A DNA stretch of 36,445 nucleotides from Gemmatimonadota bacterium (GTDB lineage Bacteria > Latescibacterota > UBA2968 > UBA8231), in contig PBOD01000116.1 in the NCBI GenBank assembly GCA_002724215.1, forward strand, positions 1 to 36,445, read 5' to 3'. Of the stretch, positions 4,604-23,719 are shown in pieces (the first letter of the stretch is position 1; every line of letters begins with the position of its first letter). The notes beneath the pieces are model-generated. The model saw only the letters and a program-made list of their open reading frames with translations. It made no database searches and had not been told where the DNA came from. The translations under genes were made by a program, and so were the position numbers.

Positions 4604-5827
4604 CTATTCGATAAATGGGCCTTCCTCTTTGAGCCGCTTTAGCACGCGCGCGTATTCCTCCGAGCCGTCGTCGATCCAGTACTCGTGTTGGATCCCCGCC
4701 AGTCTTCCCTCCTCGGTGCCAGTCATGCGATCGACGTCGGGTTTGCCCAATGAATAGCCCTTGTGGCCGCCGGCGAAGTGCAAAACGCCAATATAGTCGT
4801 AGGCGGGCAGGTGGGCGCGTTCGGCGGCGGCGGCGAGCGCCTGCTCGTCGATTGTAACGCCCAAGCCCGGTTCCTCGGGCACCGGCGACAGGCCCTCGAC
4901 TACCGGCAGTTTTTCGGTGGTGATATCCGATTCGAACTGGTCGTCGAGATTGATGGTGTGGCACGAGGCGGTGGGCAGCACGGCGGCCTGGTGCATGGTG
5001 AAGGCCTTCATCAGGGTATTGCCGCACTGCTGGATCAGGCACTGGATATTGGCCTTGCCGTAGGCGAAGCCCGAGAGCATGGTATTGCCGATGCTGCCGC
5101 CGATCATGTAGATGTCGGCGACGCCGCGGATGACCTCCTGGATGCCCCCCAGTTGCGGTACGTGCATGATGAGCGGCACTTTGACCTTTTCGCGCAGCGC
5201 GCGCCAGCCGTCGATGTCGGACCAGACCACGGGATCTTCGATAAAGCCGACGATGGGCGATTTTTCGAGCTCGGCGACGATGGGCAGGACGGTGCCGAGG
5301 GTGCGGTTGTGGTTGAGGTCCCAGTGCAGCTTAAAGCCGGGCGGAGCGACTTTTTCGGCGGCCCGTGTCTGCTCGATGACATCGTAGCGGGCGTCGGAAT
5401 GCATCTTGAAGACGCGATAGCCCTGGTCGACGGCGCGCTGCACCTCGGCGGCGAAGACGTCGGGCGGGCAGGGCCGGGTCCAGGCGGCGACCGGCACGCG
5501 GTCTCTGATCTTCTGGCCGAAGAGTTTGTAGCAAGGCACGCCGAGGTGTTTGCCCATCAGGTCGTAGAGCGCCATTCCCAGGGCCAGGTGGTAGTCGTTG
5601 AGCAGGTGGTCGAAGGGGCTGGTGCCGATCAGCGCGTCGATCTGGGTCTGCGGGGCCGGATTGGGGTTGTCTTCGTAGTTACCGTAGCCGACGAGGCCGT
5701 TATCAGCGGTGACTTTGGTGACCAGGTGCTGGTCCATGTCGTACATGCGCATGCGGCCGGCGTGGTCGTCGTAGCGCCTGGCGAAGGGCATGGCGATGGG
5801 GATTTGTTCGATGGCGGCGATTTTCAT
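4604..5827 (-). CDS. Divergent mandelate racemase/muconate lactonizing (enolase-superfamily) protein
   Basis: This 407-residue protein has the capping domain and barrel of the MR/MLE family. Seen motifs are FKMHSD (K141, with His143 where the second Lys of KxK normally sits), LHWDLN (D170, first metal ligand) and FIEDP (E197, second metal ligand). The third ligand, normally a Glu 26 residues after E197, aligns with V223 in PLIMHVPQ, and the C-terminal Asp/His catalytic residues are not recognisable. Family members are sugar-acid dehydratases or racemases; this one may have an altered metal site or be non-catalytic. The start MKIAAIEQI is chosen for its GGGAG site about 10 nt upstream rather than an ATG 13 codons earlier. 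It is divergent from the amidase operon, with back-to-back promoters. Confidence 0.82.
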   Translation of the reverse strand: MKIAAIEQIPIAMPFARRYDDHAGRMRMYDMDQHLVTKVTADNGLVGYGNYEDNPNPAPQTQIDALIGTSPFDHLLNDYHLALGMALYDLMGKHLGVPCYKLFGQKIRDRVPVAAWTRPCPPDVFAAEVQRAVDQGYRVFKMHSDARYDVIEQTRAAEKVAPPGFKLHWDLNHNRTLGTVLPIVAELEKSPIVGFIEDPVVWSDIDGWRALREKVKVPLIMHVPQLGGIQEVIRGVADIYMIGGSIGNTMLSGFAYGKANIQCLIQQCGNTLMKAFTMHQAAVLPTASCHTINLDDQFESDITTEKLPVVEGLSPVPEEPGLGVTIDEQALAAAAERAHLPAYDYIGVLHFAGGHKGYSLGKPDVDRMTGTEEGRLAGIQHEYWIDDGSEEYARVLKRLKEEGPFIE

Positions 5828-5866
5828 CTGGGCGCTCCCGATATATGGTTTTGGCAAATGGGCCAC

Positions 5867-5895
5867 AATATTTCAAAACGGGATGCGACTGTCAA
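5867..5895 (-). promoter_or_regulatory. Candidate promoter for the minus-strand MR/MLE gene
   Basis: On the minus strand a perfect -35 TTGACA (5895-5890) is followed after 17 bp by AATATT (5872-5867), or after 19 bp by TATTGT. The start codon is 40 bp further on. Its -35 lies 2 bp from the -35 of the divergent promoter. Confidence 0.5.
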
Positions 5896-5897
5896 GA

Positions 5898-5926
5898 TTG
5901 ACCGTGGGCTTCGGGCAGGGTATCTT
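5898..5926 (+). promoter_or_regulatory. Candidate promoter for the 5952-9439 operon
   Basis: TTGACC (5898-5903), a 17-bp spacer and TATCTT (5921-5926) make a good sigma70-type promoter, ending 25 bp before the ATG at 5952. Together with the opposing -35 it forms the inverted repeat GTCAA-GA-TTGAC (5891-5902), which could also bind a dimeric regulator. Confidence 0.5.
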
Positions 5927-5951
5927 GGGGCCGATTTCGAGGAGAAAGGTC

Positions 5952-6791
5952 ATGTTCGAAAAAATTGCTGTCGCGGCGATATCCTTCGTTCCCGAGAAAT
6001 TCGCCCTCGACAAAAATGCCAACCGCCTGGAGGCGCAGTTCCGCAGGGCGGCCGCCCGCGGGGCGCAACTGGCGGTGGCGCCGGAGGGTGTTTTGGAAGG
6101 CTATGTGGTGATGGATATTATCGAGGGGCGGGTCGCGGCCGAGGAAATGCGCGCGGTGGCGGTGGCGACGCGCGGGGCGATGATGGACCGCTTTCGGGCG
6201 CTGGCGCGAGAGCTCAAAATGTGCCTGGCTTTCGGGTTGGCCGAAAAGATCGGGCGCGATCTCTACAACTGCGCCGTCTTTATCGACCACAATGGCAAAT
6301 TGTGCGGTAAATACCACAAGATGCAGCTTGCGGAGGGCTACCATCGGTCGTGGTGGTTCAATCGCCTGGGCAAGAACAGCCGCGCCTTCAACACGCCCTT
6401 CGGCCGCTGCGGCTTCCTCATTTGCAATGACCGCTGGAATCCCGATATCGCGCGGATTCCGGTGCTTGATGGGGCGCAGTATCTGCTGATTCCCTCCTAT
6501 GGCTCGCGCTCGAAATCGCAGGATGCGAATGTGCTGGCGCGGGCGCGCGAAAATGGCGTGGCCATCGTCGAAGCCAATGTGGGTGTGACGATGGCCGTCA
6601 GCAAGGGCGAAGTGGTGGCGCTGTCGCGCAAGGAGACGACCATTACCTATGCGTCGATTGAGATCCCGGCCGCCGCGTCGAGGGCCAATCGCGACCAGCA
6701 CGAGGGGCGCTTTCTCACATGGCGGCGTCGGGAGATGCGCGCACGCTACGAAAAAACCATGGCGCGGGTTAGCCGGAAAGGAAATAAATGA
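5952..6791 (+). CDS. Carbon-nitrogen hydrolase (nitrilase superfamily amidase), operon leader
   Basis: This 279-residue protein carries the Glu-Lys-Cys triad: E45 in APEGVLEGY, K123 in YHKMQL and C158 in LICNDRWNPD. The Cys-Asn-Asp-Arg context differs from the first amidase in the window (Cys-His-Asp-Met), so they are probably not recent duplicates and may act on different amides. The ATG at 5952 follows GAGGAGAAAG and a good promoter. The longer open frame upstream runs antisense over the MR/MLE start and is not used. Its stop overlaps the next start codon (ATGA), so translation of amidase and isomerase is coupled. A role in opening an amide or carbamoyl substrate before oxidation is an inference. 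Confidence 0.87.
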   Translation: MFEKIAVAAISFVPEKFALDKNANRLEAQFRRAAARGAQLAVAPEGVLEGYVVMDIIEGRVAAEEMRAVAVATRGAMMDRFRALARELKMCLAFGLAEKIGRDLYNCAVFIDHNGKLCGKYHKMQLAEGYHRSWWFNRLGKNSRAFNTPFGRCGFLICNDRWNPDIARIPVLDGAQYLLIPSYGSRSKSQDANVLARARENGVAIVEANVGVTMAVSKGEVVALSRKETTITYASIEIPAAASRANRDQHEGRFLTWRRREMRARYEKTMARVSRKGNK

Positions 6792-16662: not shown

Positions 16663-17541
16663 TTACGATTGTTCGGGATAGGTGTGGAAATCGCCGGGCT
16701 GGCGGCGCGGCGGGTGGCCCATGGGCCAGGCTGCGGTGCCGAGGAAGTTGTGGAAGTCGTCCTGCTTGCCCGCCAGCCAGTAGAACATCCTGGCCGCGTC
16801 GTGCCAGTGGTGGAACTGGTCTTTAGCCGGATGCACCCCGCCGCCGTAGAGGGCGTTTTCGAAGTTGTCGAGGTCGTCGAGGTTGAAATCGGGTTCGACG
16901 ATCCAGTCGCGGCGCGGTGGTGCCATGCGCCAGTAGAGGTATTTGAGCATATCGCGCACGCCCGGGGCGGAAGATGTGCCACGGCGGTGCCAGATCGGGT
17001 AGGCGGTAATGAAAATGGTGCCCGCCGCCGCCGCAGTGGACGCAGTCCCGCTGATGCCGCCGTAGTGGCCCATATACGATCCGAGGTTGAAGAGAAAATG
17101 CGAGCCGGGCAGCACTTCGGTGGGGCCGAGTTCGCGGGGCGTGTCCTGGGGATAGTAGAATACCTGCAGGTGGTTGACGGCATGCCCGTAGCGCGAGCAG
17201 CCGTCGCGGTGCCATTGCTGCGCCGGTTTGGGCTGAGTGGACCGGTGGTTGAACATCCAGGTCGGCAGGGCGGCCTGCCGGCCCAATAGCGAGCGCACCG
17301 CGCCGGCCGCCTGCCGGTTGAGGATCACCTCTTTGATGAACCACTCTTCTGCCAGCAAGCGGTCGTCTTCGAATTCGCCGCCGTCCCCGGCCGCGTAGGG
17401 ATGCGCGCGGATGAATTCGCCAACGCGCTCGTTGGTTTCCGGGGCCACCACGCCTTCGAGGATCAGGTAGCCCCGGTGGCAGAATTCGAGGACCTGGGTG
17501 TCGGTCAGGGTGGGGGCGATATCGGGCATGCGCGCAGTCAT
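16663..17541 (-). CDS. Phytanoyl-CoA dioxygenase (PhyH) family oxygenase
   Basis: This 292-residue protein has H111/D113 in QQWHRDGCS, distal H185 in PIWHRRGTS and Arg R196 after APGV, the full Fe(II)/2-oxoglutarate set, plus EVLPGSHFLF. The C-terminal 80 residues after the core are an extra Trp/His-rich tail. The start is ATG at 17541, overlapping the TGA of the preceding small gene by one base (TGATG) with AGAGG 8 nt upstream; a GTG three codons earlier is possible. It is coupled to the 119-residue unknown protein upstream and followed by a second PhyH gene. Substrate unknown. Confidence 0.9.
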   Translation of the reverse strand: MTARMPDIAPTLTDTQVLEFCHRGYLILEGVVAPETNERVGEFIRAHPYAAGDGGEFEDDRLLAEEWFIKEVILNRQAAGAVRSLLGRQAALPTWMFNHRSTQPKPAQQWHRDGCSRYGHAVNHLQVFYYPQDTPRELGPTEVLPGSHFLFNLGSYMGHYGGISGTASTAAAAGTIFITAYPIWHRRGTSSAPGVRDMLKYLYWRMAPPRRDWIVEPDFNLDDLDNFENALYGGGVHPAKDQFHHWHDAARMFYWLAGKQDDFHNFLGTAAWPMGHPPRRQPGDFHTYPEQS

Positions 17542-17900
17542 CAATGCCACCTCTCGAGGATGAACTCGCAGCCGAGTCCGTAGGTTTTCGACTCGTCGAG
17601 CAGCAACGCCATATTGGGAAATTGCACGATGCGCCAGCCGTCGCAGATGGCCTGGAGCGGGGTTTTATAGGGCCAGTCCGCCGGGTCTGGCGGGCCGTCG
17701 GAAATTGCGCCGTTTTCGACCAGGGCCATGCCGTGGACGCTGGAGTCGAGGGCCGTACTACTGGTCTGCAGGTAGAGCAGATCCTGGTACTTTGGCTTCG
17801 CTGTGCCCAATTCCTCCAGGGTTTGGCGCAAGGTCGCTTCGGTGAGTGTTCCGCGGCGAAATGCCTCGAGACAGTCTGCCAGTTGTCTGCGTTTGTCCAT
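17541..17900 (-). CDS. Unknown protein, 119 aa, coupled to a PhyH oxygenase
   Basis: No family recognised. The protein is soluble: a charged helical first third (RRQLADCLEAFRRGTLTEAT) is followed by a mixed domain with YKTPLQAICDGWRIVQFPN and a compact end. Its TGA overlaps the ATG of the PhyH gene by one base, so the two are translationally coupled and probably work together. A weak GGGA site lies 8 nt before the ATG. It could be a small accessory or regulatory subunit; that is inferred from coupling alone. Confidence 0.65.
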   Translation of the reverse strand: MDKRRQLADCLEAFRRGTLTEATLRQTLEELGTAKPKYQDLLYLQTSSTALDSSVHGMALVENGAISDGPPDPADWPYKTPLQAICDGWRIVQFPNMALLLDESKTYGLGCEFILERWH

Positions 17901-18021: not shown

Positions 18022-18066
18022 GGAAAGGACGCGACAATGCACATAGCGGTGATCGGCGTCGATTAG
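18022..18066 (+). pseudogene. Orphan gene start: ribosome site plus nine codons
   Basis: A good Shine-Dalgarno (GGAAAGGA, 18022-18029) precedes ATG 18037 and the codons for MHIAVIGVD, then TAG at 18064-18066. The peptide looks like the first strand of a Rossmann-fold dehydrogenase such as Gfo/Idh. The rest of the gene is absent and the stop overlaps the end of the convergent aldolase gene. It is probably a truncation scar, but a 9-codon leader peptide cannot be excluded. Confidence 0.4.
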
Positions 18067-18818
18067 GCCGGCGGGAAGGGCTCGTCGGCGTGGGTGGCAG
18101 CGAAGGCGCGCGTCGCATCGATGAGCAAGTCCGACATATTGGCCTGGGCTGCGTAATCCAGGGAGATGCGTTTGCCGGCAGCGCGGGTGCGGGCTTCGAT
18201 ATCGGCGTGGACGCGGACTACTTCTGGGTGGTCTGCGGGGGCGCCGGGGAAGCCGAGCGAGGCGGCCAGGTCATTGGGGCCAAAGGCGATGGCGTCGAGA
18301 CCTTTGATGGCGAGGATGGCGTCGAGATTGTCGTAGCCCAGCTGCGATTCGATCTGGGCGAAGACCAGCATATTGTCGTCGGCGAACTGGCGGAAACCCG
18401 GGCGTCCGCCATAGGATGCAAGGGCGGCTTCGTCGTTGAATTCGGTGCCGCGGCCACCGCCCCAGGAGCGCTGGCCCAGCGGCGCGAAGTAGCAGGCATC
18501 GACCAGGGCCCGGGTCTGGTCGGCAGTCTCGATATGTGGTGCCATAATGCCCTGGACGCCGCGGTCGAGCCAGCGGTTGATTTCGTCGGCGCGGATGTGC
18601 GGTACGCGAGCGGTGACCGAGAGGCCGTGGGCGTGGGCGACGTGGACGATGCGATCGACATCGGTGGGGTTGAAGGCGCCGTGCTCACCGTCGAGATTGA
18701 CGGCGTCGAAGCCGGCGCGGGCGGCGTATTCGACCAGGTGGGTATCGGGAAAGGCCAGGCCCAGGCTCAGGGCCTTTTTGCCCTGCTGGTTTTTGGCGAG
18801 GATGGTGTTGGGAAACAT
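18063..18818 (-). CDS. HpcH/HpaI-family class II aldolase
   Basis: This 251-residue protein matches the HpcH/HpaI (2-keto-3-deoxy-glucarate / hydroxy-oxo-heptanedioate) aldolase family: LDGEHG with the catalytic His (H46), R71 in ARVP, the metal ligands E157 in FAQIES and D183 in FGPNDL, and GIMAPHIE. It would cleave a 2-keto-3-deoxy sugar acid or related 4-hydroxy-2-oxo acid into pyruvate and an aldehyde, the end step of non-phosphorylative sugar-acid breakdown. The start MFPNTILA at 18818 is preferred because AAGGAG lies 9 nt upstream; an ATG two codons earlier would be only 3 nt from it. A good promoter precedes it. Confidence 0.9.
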   Translation of the reverse strand: MFPNTILAKNQQGKKALSLGLAFPDTHLVEYAARAGFDAVNLDGEHGAFNPTDVDRIVHVAHAHGLSVTARVPHIRADEINRWLDRGVQGIMAPHIETADQTRALVDACYFAPLGQRSWGGGRGTEFNDEAALASYGGRPGFRQFADDNMLVFAQIESQLGYDNLDAILAIKGLDAIAFGPNDLAASLGFPGAPADHPEVVRVHADIEARTRAAGKRISLDYAAQANMSDLLIDATRAFAATHADEPFPPA

Positions 18819-18846
18819 ATTCATCAGCTCCTTTGATTGGGTCTAA

Positions 18847-18895: not shown

Positions 18896-19645
18896 ATGGA
18901 CGATATTTTCAAACGATATACCTTCGGCGCGGCTGAAAAAGCCGAGTTGGACCACGTCGGTCACTACGCGCTGCCGGGCTTGCTGACGGAAAACGCGCAG
19001 GCGCGGCTGACCGAGGCGTTGGCGCATATACTGTCGCTGCCGCGCGACGACGAGGCGTATTTGCCGAGTCGCTTTGCTGCGGAATTCAACGAGTATTTAG
19101 AGGGTCTGATCGGGCATCCGCAATTGCTGCAATTGGTGCGCAAGGTGCTGGGTGAGGAAATCCGCTACGATCACTGCGTGGCTTTGAATCGTCCCGGCGG
19201 CAATGCCGGTAGCCACTGGCACAGCCACGAGTATGGCAACGACAATCCGGCGCTGGGTTTTGTTCGGGTGTTTTTTTACGTGAATGGATTTGCGGCGGAC
19301 GACGGGGGACTGAAGGTCGTGCCGGGGAGCCATTTATACCGGGATGCGGGGATCAGCGCGGGATCGGATCGGGAATTGGAGGAGGGGTGGATGGCGGGGA
19401 AGGTACATCTGAAGACGGGAAAAGAACTGCAGATTGAGGAATTGAGCGTGCCGAAGGGGACGGTGATTTTGATGTGGACGCACGCTGCGCATGGGGTGAA
19501 TGCGCGCAAGGAGGGCAGTGATACGCGGTGGTGTGTGGTGTATGCGTATCGGAATCCAGGGGAGGAATCGCGGGCGCGGTGGATGAGTAAGGGGTTTGAG
19601 CAGAAGCAGATTGTGGGGGCGGAAGGATTGATGAGTTTGTACTAG
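18896..19645 (+). CDS. PhyH-family protein with HxH in place of HxD
   Basis: This 249-residue protein has the PhyH layout: NRPGGNAGSHWHSHEYG (99-115), VRVFFYVNGF, LKVVPGSHLY, then MWTHAAHGVNARKEGSDTRW with distal H199 and R211. In relatives the first motif is W-H-x-D; here it reads W108-H109-S110-H111, so the metal-binding Asp is replaced by His, possibly with E112 nearby. That would give a three-His site or an inactive protein. It is the first gene of a plus-strand group with a galactonate-dehydratase-like enzyme and is divergent from the aldolase. GGAG lies 10 nt before the ATG. Family call is sure, activity is not. Confidence 0.8.
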   Translation: MDDIFKRYTFGAAEKAELDHVGHYALPGLLTENAQARLTEALAHILSLPRDDEAYLPSRFAAEFNEYLEGLIGHPQLLQLVRKVLGEEIRYDHCVALNRPGGNAGSHWHSHEYGNDNPALGFVRVFFYVNGFAADDGGLKVVPGSHLYRDAGISAGSDRELEEGWMAGKVHLKTGKELQIEELSVPKGTVILMWTHAAHGVNARKEGSDTRWCVVYAYRNPGEESRARWMSKGFEQKQIVGAEGLMSLY

Positions 19646-19718: not shown

Positions 19719-20834
19719 ATGAGGATTGCGGAAATTCGGACTTTTTTGGTGGGCAGGTTCCTGCTGGTGCGGGTGTATACCGATGAGGGGATCGTGGGCA
19801 ATGGAGAAGGGGGGTTGTGGGGGCATCACGGGGTGGTGAAGGCGGCGATTGACGAGTTGGCAGACTATTATGTGGGGAAGGATCCGCGGACGATCGAGCA
19901 CCACTATCAGGTGGTATCGCGCCATTCGCACTTTATGGGCGGGGTGTTGAGCGCGGCGATGAGCGCGGTGGATATTGCGCTGTGGGATATTCTGGGGCAG
20001 TCGCTGGGCGTGCCGGTATATCAGTTGTTGGGCGGGAAATGTCGGGAGAAGGTTAAGGTGTTTGAGAATATTCGCGGCGATACGGCGGCGGAGGTGGCGG
20101 AGAGCGCGCGGGAGCAGGTCGAGCGCGGTTTTCACTCGCTGCGGATGACGCCCTTTGCCAGCGGTTTCGAACAGCGGTCCGGCACGCAGAATGTCGCGAC
20201 GGCGGTGGAGTTGGTGGCGGCGGCGCGGGAGGCGATCGGGGATGGGGTGGATCTTGGTTTGGAAATCCACAGGAATTTGCGGCCGGAAGAGGCGATTGCG
20301 CTGGCGCTAGAACTGGAGCCGTTTAAGATTCTTTACTACGAAGACCCGCTGGCGCCCGAGAGCGTGGAGGCGGTGGAATATATAGCGAAGAGCGTCAGGC
20401 TGCCGATTGCGACGGGGGAAAGGTTCTACAATATTTATCAGTTTAAAGACCTAATCGACCGCAAGGTGGTGAGTTTGATCCGGCCGGATCTGTCGCTGGC
20501 GGGTGGTTTTACGCAGGTGAAGAAAATCGCAGCCATTGCGGAGCCCGCCTTTGTGGGGATCTTTCCGCATCTAATGGGCAGCCCGATCAATAATTCGGCG
20601 TTTGCGCATCTGGCGGCGGCGATTCCCAATTACACCCACACCGAGCACAATGCGCTGACGGGGCCGATGGCCGAGATCGTCGCGGGACAGCTGCCGGTGG
20701 AAGGGGGCTATCGGCTACTCAACGACAAGCCGGGGCTGGGGATCGAGATCGTCGAGGAGGCGCTGGCGAAATATCCCTACGAGCGGGTGGCGGTGACCGG
20801 GCACTTCCACGCCGACGGCTCGGTGGCGCACTGA
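19719..20834 (+). CDS. MR/MLE-family sugar-acid dehydratase (galactonate-dehydratase-like)
   Basis: This 371-residue protein has the full set of enolase-superfamily active-site residues at spacing very close to D-galactonate dehydratase: E182 and H184 in LEIHRNL (Asp-His in the reference enzyme), E208 in YYEDPLAPE, E234 in ATGERF, D257 in RPDLSLAGG, H284 in FPHLMGSP and E309 in HTEHNAL. It would dehydrate an aldonic acid to a 2-keto-3-deoxy acid, feeding the nearby aldolases. The Asp-to-Glu change at the first metal ligand is a caution against naming the exact substrate. Upstream is a purine-rich AAGAAGAGAAAAAAG ribosome region. The next gene starts inside its stop codon. Confidence 0.88.
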   Translation: MRIAEIRTFLVGRFLLVRVYTDEGIVGNGEGGLWGHHGVVKAAIDELADYYVGKDPRTIEHHYQVVSRHSHFMGGVLSAAMSAVDIALWDILGQSLGVPVYQLLGGKCREKVKVFENIRGDTAAEVAESAREQVERGFHSLRMTPFASGFEQRSGTQNVATAVELVAAAREAIGDGVDLGLEIHRNLRPEEAIALALELEPFKILYYEDPLAPESVEAVEYIAKSVRLPIATGERFYNIYQFKDLIDRKVVSLIRPDLSLAGGFTQVKKIAAIAEPAFVGIFPHLMGSPINNSAFAHLAAAIPNYTHTEHNALTGPMAEIVAGQLPVEGGYRLLNDKPGLGIEIVEEALAKYPYERVAVTGHFHADGSVAH

Positions 20835-21166
20835 TGATCCTCTATGTGTCGGGCCGCGATACCGACGATCTGCTCATGGTCTTGGAGGGGGTTAGGGGGG
20901 TGACGGTAAAGCGCAGCCAGGAACGCAAAAAGCGCAAGTACTTCGAGAAGGGCGCGCGCAAGGAATCTATGGGACAGGCGTCGGCGACGGTATTCCTGGA
21001 TAGCGCTATGGGGGAGAATGAGCTGGCGGCCGTGCGGGATATTTTGGTGCAGGGCGTGCGCTGCAAAGAGGTCGAAGTAGTTGTAAAGGAAGCTGGGGAT
21101 AGGGCGTTTGCCGGACCGGCGGCCGATGCGGAAATCCTCGTCGCTTTGACAAATGCCCTGACCTGA
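20834..21166 (+). CDS. Unknown small protein, 110 aa, coupled to the dehydratase
   Basis: No family recognised. The ATG shares one base with the TGA of the dehydratase gene (TGATG), so translation is coupled. The protein begins MILYVSGRDTDDLLMVLEGV, has a basic stretch (RSQERKKRKYFEKGARK, about 27-43) and a second alpha/beta half (NELAAVRDILVQGVRCKEVEVVV). It may be a small alpha/beta fold with a charged loop. No signal peptide or membrane segment. A regulatory or assembly role with the dehydratase is speculation. Confidence 0.6.
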   Translation: MILYVSGRDTDDLLMVLEGVRGVTVKRSQERKKRKYFEKGARKESMGQASATVFLDSAMGENELAAVRDILVQGVRCKEVEVVVKEAGDRAFAGPAADAEILVALTNALT

Positions 21167-22804: not shown

Positions 22805-23719
22805 ATGTTTGACCAAGCATTGCGCAACCAACTCAAGGGCGTCCATGCCTATGCACTGACGATCTATCAGCGCGACGATTGCTGCGCGCTCGATCTCGAC
22901 GGCTTTGCCGCCAATTTGGTCTGGGCGGCCGAGCGCGGGGTGGCGATTTTTGTCGTCGCGGGCGGGACCGGCGAAAACGACGCGCTGACGCCCGCCGAGC
23001 GCGTGGTCATGGCCGAGCGGGCGATGGCGGCAGTGGGTGAGCGGGCGCTGGTGATCCCAACTTTGCCGGGAAATCTGGGCGAGGCCGCCGAGTTGGCGCC
23101 GCGCTACGAGAGTTTGGGCGCGCGCGTAGCGCTGGCGATGCCGCCGCTGATCCGCCACCAGGCACCGGACGATCCCGCGGCGGTCTGCAATTATTACCGG
23201 GCGCTGGGGTCGCGGTCGGGCGGGCTGGCGCTGATGCCCTACAACACTCAGGGCTGGTCGGCCGATCTATTCGAACGGTTGGCCGAAGTCGAGCAGATCA
23301 TCGCGATCAAAGACCCCTGCTTCGACGACCATCCGCTCTTCCGCGCTATACAGCGGCTCGGCGATCGCTTCGTGTGGATCGGCAACAAGCGTCACGACCC
23401 CGGCGTATTGCACTTTCGCTTCCAGGCTGGGATCGAGGCCTTTACCGCTGGCTTCGTCAACTTCGCGCCCGAGCTGGAGCTGGAGTTGTTTGCGGCCGCG
23501 CAAGAGCAAGACTGGCCGCGAATGGTCGAATTGCAGGCGCAATTGGCGCATTTGGAGCGCTTGCGCGCCCGCTACGACGACGCCGGGATGCTCAAGGCGA
23601 CGATGGAGTTGATTGGCTTGGCCGGTGGGCCGGTGCGGCCGCCGCGGGTGGATTTGACGGCGGTGGAGCGGGGGGAGATTGAGACCGAGTTGCAGCGCTT
23701 GGGGATTCTGGGTGCCTGA
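22805..23719 (+). CDS. Dihydrodipicolinate synthase (DapA)-family aldolase/dehydratase
   Basis: This 304-residue class I aldolase has GGTGE (53-57), the catalytic Tyr in LMPYNTQG (Y146) and the Schiff-base Lys in IIAIKDP (K169). The family includes 2-keto-3-deoxygluconate aldolases, 5-dehydro-4-deoxyglucarate dehydratase and others. The VAGGTGEND sequence and the length match the 5-dehydro-4-deoxyglucarate dehydratase side better than lysine biosynthesis. In this setting cleavage or dehydration of a keto-deoxy sugar acid is likely. The ATG follows AGGAG with 6-nt spacing. It stands alone between decayed regions, and a strong terminator lies 134 bp after it. Confidence 0.9.
   Translation: MFDQALRNQLKGVHAYALTIYQRDDCCALDLDGFAANLVWAAERGVAIFVVAGGTGENDALTPAERVVMAERAMAAVGERALVIPTLPGNLGEAAELAPRYESLGARVALAMPPLIRHQAPDDPAAVCNYYRALGSRSGGLALMPYNTQGWSADLFERLAEVEQIIAIKDPCFDDHPLFRAIQRLGDRFVWIGNKRHDPGVLHFRFQAGIEAFTAGFVNFAPELELELFAAAQEQDWPRMVELQAQLAHLERLRARYDDAGMLKATMELIGLAGGPVRPPRVDLTAVERGEIETELQRLGILGA

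Follow-up and report, generated by a model that had tools for sequence, protein, structure and literature searches.

The 36,445-nucleotide stretch of DNA analysed here (the window; contig PBOD01000116.1 of assembly GCA_002724215.1) encodes, at positions 18896..19645 of the forward strand, a 249-residue PhyH-fold protein in which a histidine stands in place of the aspartate that binds the metal in PhyH-type Fe(II)/2-oxoglutarate (2OG) oxygenases. About 140 related proteins from several phyla all share this exchange, with no exception. We therefore regard the protein as a member of a genuine enzyme subfamily, for which an unusual metal centre is predicted, and not as the product of a broken gene. 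The explanation that we favour, and hold to be somewhat probable, is that of a functional, distinct and conserved PhyH subfamily whose metal site is formed by three histidines (H109, H111 and H199) and which likely uses Fe(II) and 2OG.

The open reading frame scores 32.3 bits with the Pfam family PhyH (PF05721), for which the cut-off is 22. PhyH is the sole Pfam family that it matches at E<=0.01; at this threshold the protein does not belong to the sequence families of cysteine dioxygenase (CDO) or the cupins. NCBIfam offers no model for the protein. An AF2 model computed from an alignment of 32 sequences (pLDDT 92.8) predicts the double-stranded beta-helix (DSBH) fold of the PhyH type. The best Foldseek matches of this model are PhyH-type Fe/2OG oxygenases, namely proline hydroxylase H11, SnoN/SnoK, EctD and HygX, with E values down to 1.5e-10 and TM scores of about 0.57-0.68. 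A profile search found no solved structure of a close relative; its best match was EctD (E 1.7e-5).

The exchange lies in the proximal ligand motif W108-H109-S110-H111 (19217..19228, +; codons 19217-19219, 19220-19222, 19223-19225 and 19226-19228, respectively). A profile of relatives aligns this WHSH with the WHSD of EctD, H109 and H111 corresponding to His-146 and Asp-148, and thus H111 occupies the position of Asp-148, which is a metal ligand in the EctD assignment (PMC2871039). The replacement of HxD by HxH had been proposed in the first-pass annotation of the window, together with the statement that the other four PhyH proteins encoded there have HxD. Both hold: the four motifs are WHQD, CHTD, WHRD and FHQD. 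It had also been stated that the distal His and the 2OG-binding Arg remain. The predicted distal ligand is H199 (19490..19492, +), which lines up with the distal His in every one of 60 PhyH domains taken from the same genome, and R211 (19526..19528, +), at the start of strand VIII, aligns with their catalytic Arg. At the sequence level R211 is the equivalent of EctD Arg-259, the arginine for the 5-carboxylate of 2OG (PMC2871039). This part of the earlier description stands with one qualification, since the Ser/Thr usually found two residues after the distal His is a Val (see below). Thus the protein has the distal His and the strand VIII Arg of the 2-His-1-carboxylate oxygenases and lacks their HxD/E motif. 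The Ala/Gly that halogenases and AspH have at the Asp position is not present either, this position being an invariant His, and as far as the motif can tell H109, H111 and H199 make up the HxH...H pattern of the CDO-type three-His enzymes.

W108, H109, H111, H199 and R211 are invariant in the 32 aligned sequences, and HxH is found in all of 94 distinct orthologues (clade A), with H199 and R211 present in every one that covers those positions. The invariance of H109 and H111 in both sets shows that HxH is not a chance occurrence. Conservation of HxH in an orthologous clade was what the first-pass reading predicted; it would have been contradicted by homologues of the same clade with HxD, of which there are none, or by another acidic residue such as E112 in the ligand position. 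E112 is ruled out as a replacement carboxylate ligand because it is not conserved: its position is occupied by E, G, A or S in the 32-sequence alignment. Two other assignments were tried and rejected. A shift of the register to H107-x-H109 is ruled out by the lack of conservation of H107, and a cupin-type fourth ligand shortly after HxH finds no invariant acid (the window protein carries N115 there, and such an acid is missing from clades B and C, described below).

The orthologues derive from metagenome-assembled genomes (MAGs) labelled Latescibacterota, Poribacteria, Gemmatimonadota and Gammaproteobacteria. The first contig scan yielded 31 relatives with 55-76% identity; its six search patterns included the peptide HWHSHEYG and could have favoured HxH, but later profile searches, in which the motif was no filter, gave the same answer. 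At E<1e-60 such searches detected clade A in 28/64 genomes of the window's phylum, in 69/85 genomes of the Poribacteria phylum (tallied from the table) and in only 1/295 genomes of the order to which the OM182 carrier belongs. No relative was confirmed in viral contigs. One contig (L107, G028:C46) carries a second clade A copy with the motif WHAH in two frames, as if frameshifted or misassembled.

Pairwise dN/dS values among the orthologues range from 0.07 to 0.23. This purifying selection argues against decay, which the earlier annotation had doubted in view of the gene's surroundings, and combined with HxH in 94/94 orthologues it rules decay out. We consider it very improbable that the protein is a non-catalytic, binding or regulatory member of the PhyH fold that has lost oxygenase activity. 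The carboxylate has admittedly disappeared in a family in which the Asp ligand is normally essential, and the engineered D414H variant of prolyl 4-hydroxylase is inactive (PMC2767507), but across several phyla the two remaining ligand histidines and the Arg do not vary, nor do many residues of the pocket, and selection on the sequence is purifying.

HxH is not confined to clade A. The paralogous subfamilies B (WHSHxxG) and C (WH[GA]HxY), whose members are about 400 amino acids long, have HxH in 47/47 proteins, and the equivalents of H199 and R211 are invariant across the whole superclade (A+B+C) where covered. The single HxD protein in the score range of B and C, L090 (WHHDCYW), falls in the sister group. 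A, B and C form a single clade (SH-aLRT 98, and 95 in a second tree), which joins the HxD proteins L090, L034, L094 and L098 with a support of 90; the trees retained the ligand column, one among about 200. Taking into account that the superclade joins HxD relatives, HxH is most simply derived from HxD. In six genomes of the Poribacteria phylum (L222-L227, G383-G388) a subfamily B and a subfamily C gene are convergent neighbours.

The 5.85 Mb genome to which the window belongs (G000) has at least 150 PhyH domains. A sample of 60, spread over the upper, central and lower ranks of the genome's list, served as a base rate: 48 have HxD, eight HxG, two HxH, one HxS and one HxA, so that the ligand Asp is absent in 12/60, while both His are present in all 60. 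The two HxH domains represent two further HxH families. In the WHQH family (G000:C108) HxH is present in 19/19 proteins and the nearest relatives have HxD, whereas the LHMH family (G000:C234; HxH in 23/23) sits among HxG/S/A proteins and forms a clade with most of those from G000 (SH-aLRT 97). A single grouping of all HxH proteins was rejected by the AU test (p=0.021), from which it follows that the switch to His took place at least twice; it possibly happened three times, as the grouping of only A+B+C with the WHQH family was not rejected (p=0.234). The full conservation of the motif in these two additional families shows that HxH is a repeated, selected solution. A WHQH gene and a subfamily C gene are adjacent on the same strand in G000:C108:13376-15400, and likewise in G044:C441 and G045:C159.

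Comparison of the pockets of 36 HxH proteins with those of the sister HxD proteins (n=4) and of HxD proteins of the family revealed two features that we counted against a three-His Fe/2OG site. One is V201 (19496..19498, +). At this position, two residues after the distal His, PHYH (Ser-266), EctD (Ser-250) and SyrB2 have a Ser or Thr that helps to bind the 5-carboxylate of 2OG (PMC2871039), and PhyH proteins mostly have Ser, Thr or Ala. The residue is Val in 36/36 HxH and 4/4 sister HxD proteins, and S, A, T or G in nearly all others; the hydroxyl partner is therefore missing from the HxH proteins without exception. This loss would suit an oxygenase that works independently of 2OG as CDO does (PMC2767507), with three His, with the substrate itself chelating the iron and with R211 holding the substrate carboxylate, and HxH...H is indeed the motif of the three-His dioxygenases. 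The Val, however, is not specific to HxH because the HxD sister group shares it, so its appearance is not tied to the switch to His, and the HxH protein retains R211 and the whole PhyH fold. We regard a CDO-like mechanism as unlikely.

The other feature is D158 (19367..19369, +), an acid that is invariant in 36/36 HxH proteins and absent from the four sisters. W165 and H171 (19388..19408, +), each conserved in 36/36, and L97 and R99 are likewise invariant in the HxH proteins and not in the sisters, although W165 occurs in one of them; D92 is invariant as well and occurs in one sister. Three of these residues, D158, W165 and H171, are located after a PGSH sequence, in a region that matches the loop between strands IV and V. 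In EctD this loop is disordered; it may lend structure to the ligand pocket (PMC2871039). D158 is possibly a substitute carboxylate ligand or a substrate-binding residue; judged from the alignment, it is the carboxylate hardest to dismiss as a metal ligand and could reach the metal. On such a reading H111 would belong to the second sphere, and the metal would be held by two His together with water, an anion or D158, as in AspH and the halogenases or in a relocated 2-His-1-carboxylate site. The three HxH-specific residues of the loop region and the observation that AspH is active with only two His ligands (PMC10947486) agree with this. We nevertheless think it quite unlikely: halogenases and AspH have HxA or HxG, which is not the motif seen; H111 is absolutely conserved, whereas a small residue would be expected beside an open coordination site; and HxH is fully conserved in other families too.

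The immediate surroundings of the gene bear on the possible substrate. Downstream lies a gene for an MR_MLE enolase-superfamily sugar-acid dehydratase resembling galactonate dehydratase (19719..20834, +), which is probably in the same transcription unit as the HxH gene. Further downstream is a DHDPS-family aldolase/dehydratase similar to 5-dehydro-4-deoxyglucarate dehydratase (22805..23719, +), and on the opposite strand a divergent HpcH/HpaI-type 2-keto-3-deoxy sugar-acid aldolase is encoded (18063..18824, -); all three were assigned by Pfam/NCBIfam. Two small open reading frames beside PhyH genes (17541-17900, - and 20834-21166, +) had no Pfam or NCBIfam match. In Latescibacterota an MR_MLE dehydratase gene follows the HxH gene on its 3' side after a gap of tens to about 250 bases, often with genes for a DHDPS-family enzyme and a sulfatase further 3'. 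The related loci in which the dehydratase gene adjoins the HxH gene are L001-L005, L007, L014 and L022, and a DHDPS-family neighbour is kept in 6/31 related loci. Directly upstream of the HxH gene, the five close relatives L001, L003, L004, L005 and L007 (at about 5226-5978) encode a PhyH protein with GLHGG (HxG), a site free of carboxylate as in halogenases or AspH.

The sugar-acid gene group noted in the first-pass annotation is thus borne out in Latescibacterota, but it does not extend to the other taxa. In Poribacteria the HxH gene is often tandemly duplicated, and in two gammaproteobacterial MAGs (L024 and L026, 1300-8700) it lies in an lptD-surA-ksgA-apaH region, between ksgA (rRNA dimethylase) and a gene for an ApaH-like metallophosphoesterase, after lptD and surA. 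Since the context differs between taxa, the link to sugar acids is weak outside Latescibacterota and the substrate cannot be read from context alone. Within that phylum the neighbouring genes for enzymes of aldonates and 2-keto-3-deoxy-aldonates also accord with the CDO-like alternative discussed above, as such compounds could chelate a metal.

Returning to the explanation that we favour, we take the protein to be a three-His variant, conserved as such, of the PhyH/2OG-oxygenase fold and probably still an Fe(II)- and 2OG-dependent oxygenase. H109, H111 and H199 would form a mononuclear metal site in place of the usual two His and one Asp, with Fe(II) as the most likely metal. R211 would hold a 2-oxo acid, most likely 2OG, and activation of O2 would lead to the oxidation of a substrate that is small and polar. 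For Latescibacterota a sugar acid or one of its derivatives is a possible substrate, which is proposed because the sugar-acid dehydratase gene is directly downstream. The broader proposal, that a natural class of three-His 2OG oxygenases present in several phyla evolved at least twice within PhyH and has a charge-altered iron centre with chemistry unknown from 2-His-1-carboxylate enzymes, appears to us quite possible but short of probable. The first-pass proposal of a different metal centre, perhaps with new chemistry, is supported in part, by the conservation of HxH and by the purifying selection; binding of the metal by H111, its identity as iron and any new chemistry are predictions. Given that D414H prolyl 4-hydroxylase is inactive and AspH is active with two His, our analysis would advise against assuming either activity or inactivity from the HxH motif.

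Genome-based recognition of 2OG oxygenases relies on HxD/E...H, and on HxA/G for halogenases (PMC10947486); a conserved HxH...H clade would therefore be missed or classed as decayed. The expansion of PhyH in Poribacteria is already known (PMC3909097), and HxH is not discussed in the available parts of that paper. A search of the open-access literature found no natural three-His 2OG oxygenase, which is no proof of absence. If iron and 2OG are bound jointly at the three His, the clade would show from nature whether 2OG chemistry is possible at a neutral three-His site, a question on which the engineering of prolyl 4-hydroxylase led to a dead enzyme. A protein of 249 residues is directly testable, and the clade offers many natural variants.

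Among known systems, the closest are the PhyH Fe(II)/2OG oxygenases (PF05721; EctD, PHYH, H11, SnoN/SnoK), with which the HxH protein shares the Pfam family, the DSBH fold, both His and the Arg of strand VIII; it differs from them by His for the ligand Asp, by Val for Ser two residues after the distal His and by the HxH-specific invariants R99, D158, W165 and H171. The SyrB2-type Fe/2OG halogenases and AspH have a 2OG-oxygenase fold from which the ligand carboxylate has likewise been lost, but they have Ala or Gly and an open site where the HxH protein conserves a His that could be a ligand. The CDO-type three-His iron enzymes show the same HxH...H on a beta-barrel (cupin/DSBH) and have an Arg able to bind a carboxylate; the HxH protein belongs to another sequence family, apparently keeps the 2OG-type Arg and has no known thiol substrate. 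In D414H prolyl 4-hydroxylase, a three-His 2OG oxygenase made by engineering, the same exchange of Asp for His was introduced at the same position of the motif (PMC2767507). That enzyme is inactive, whereas the natural HxH protein is conserved and under purifying selection.
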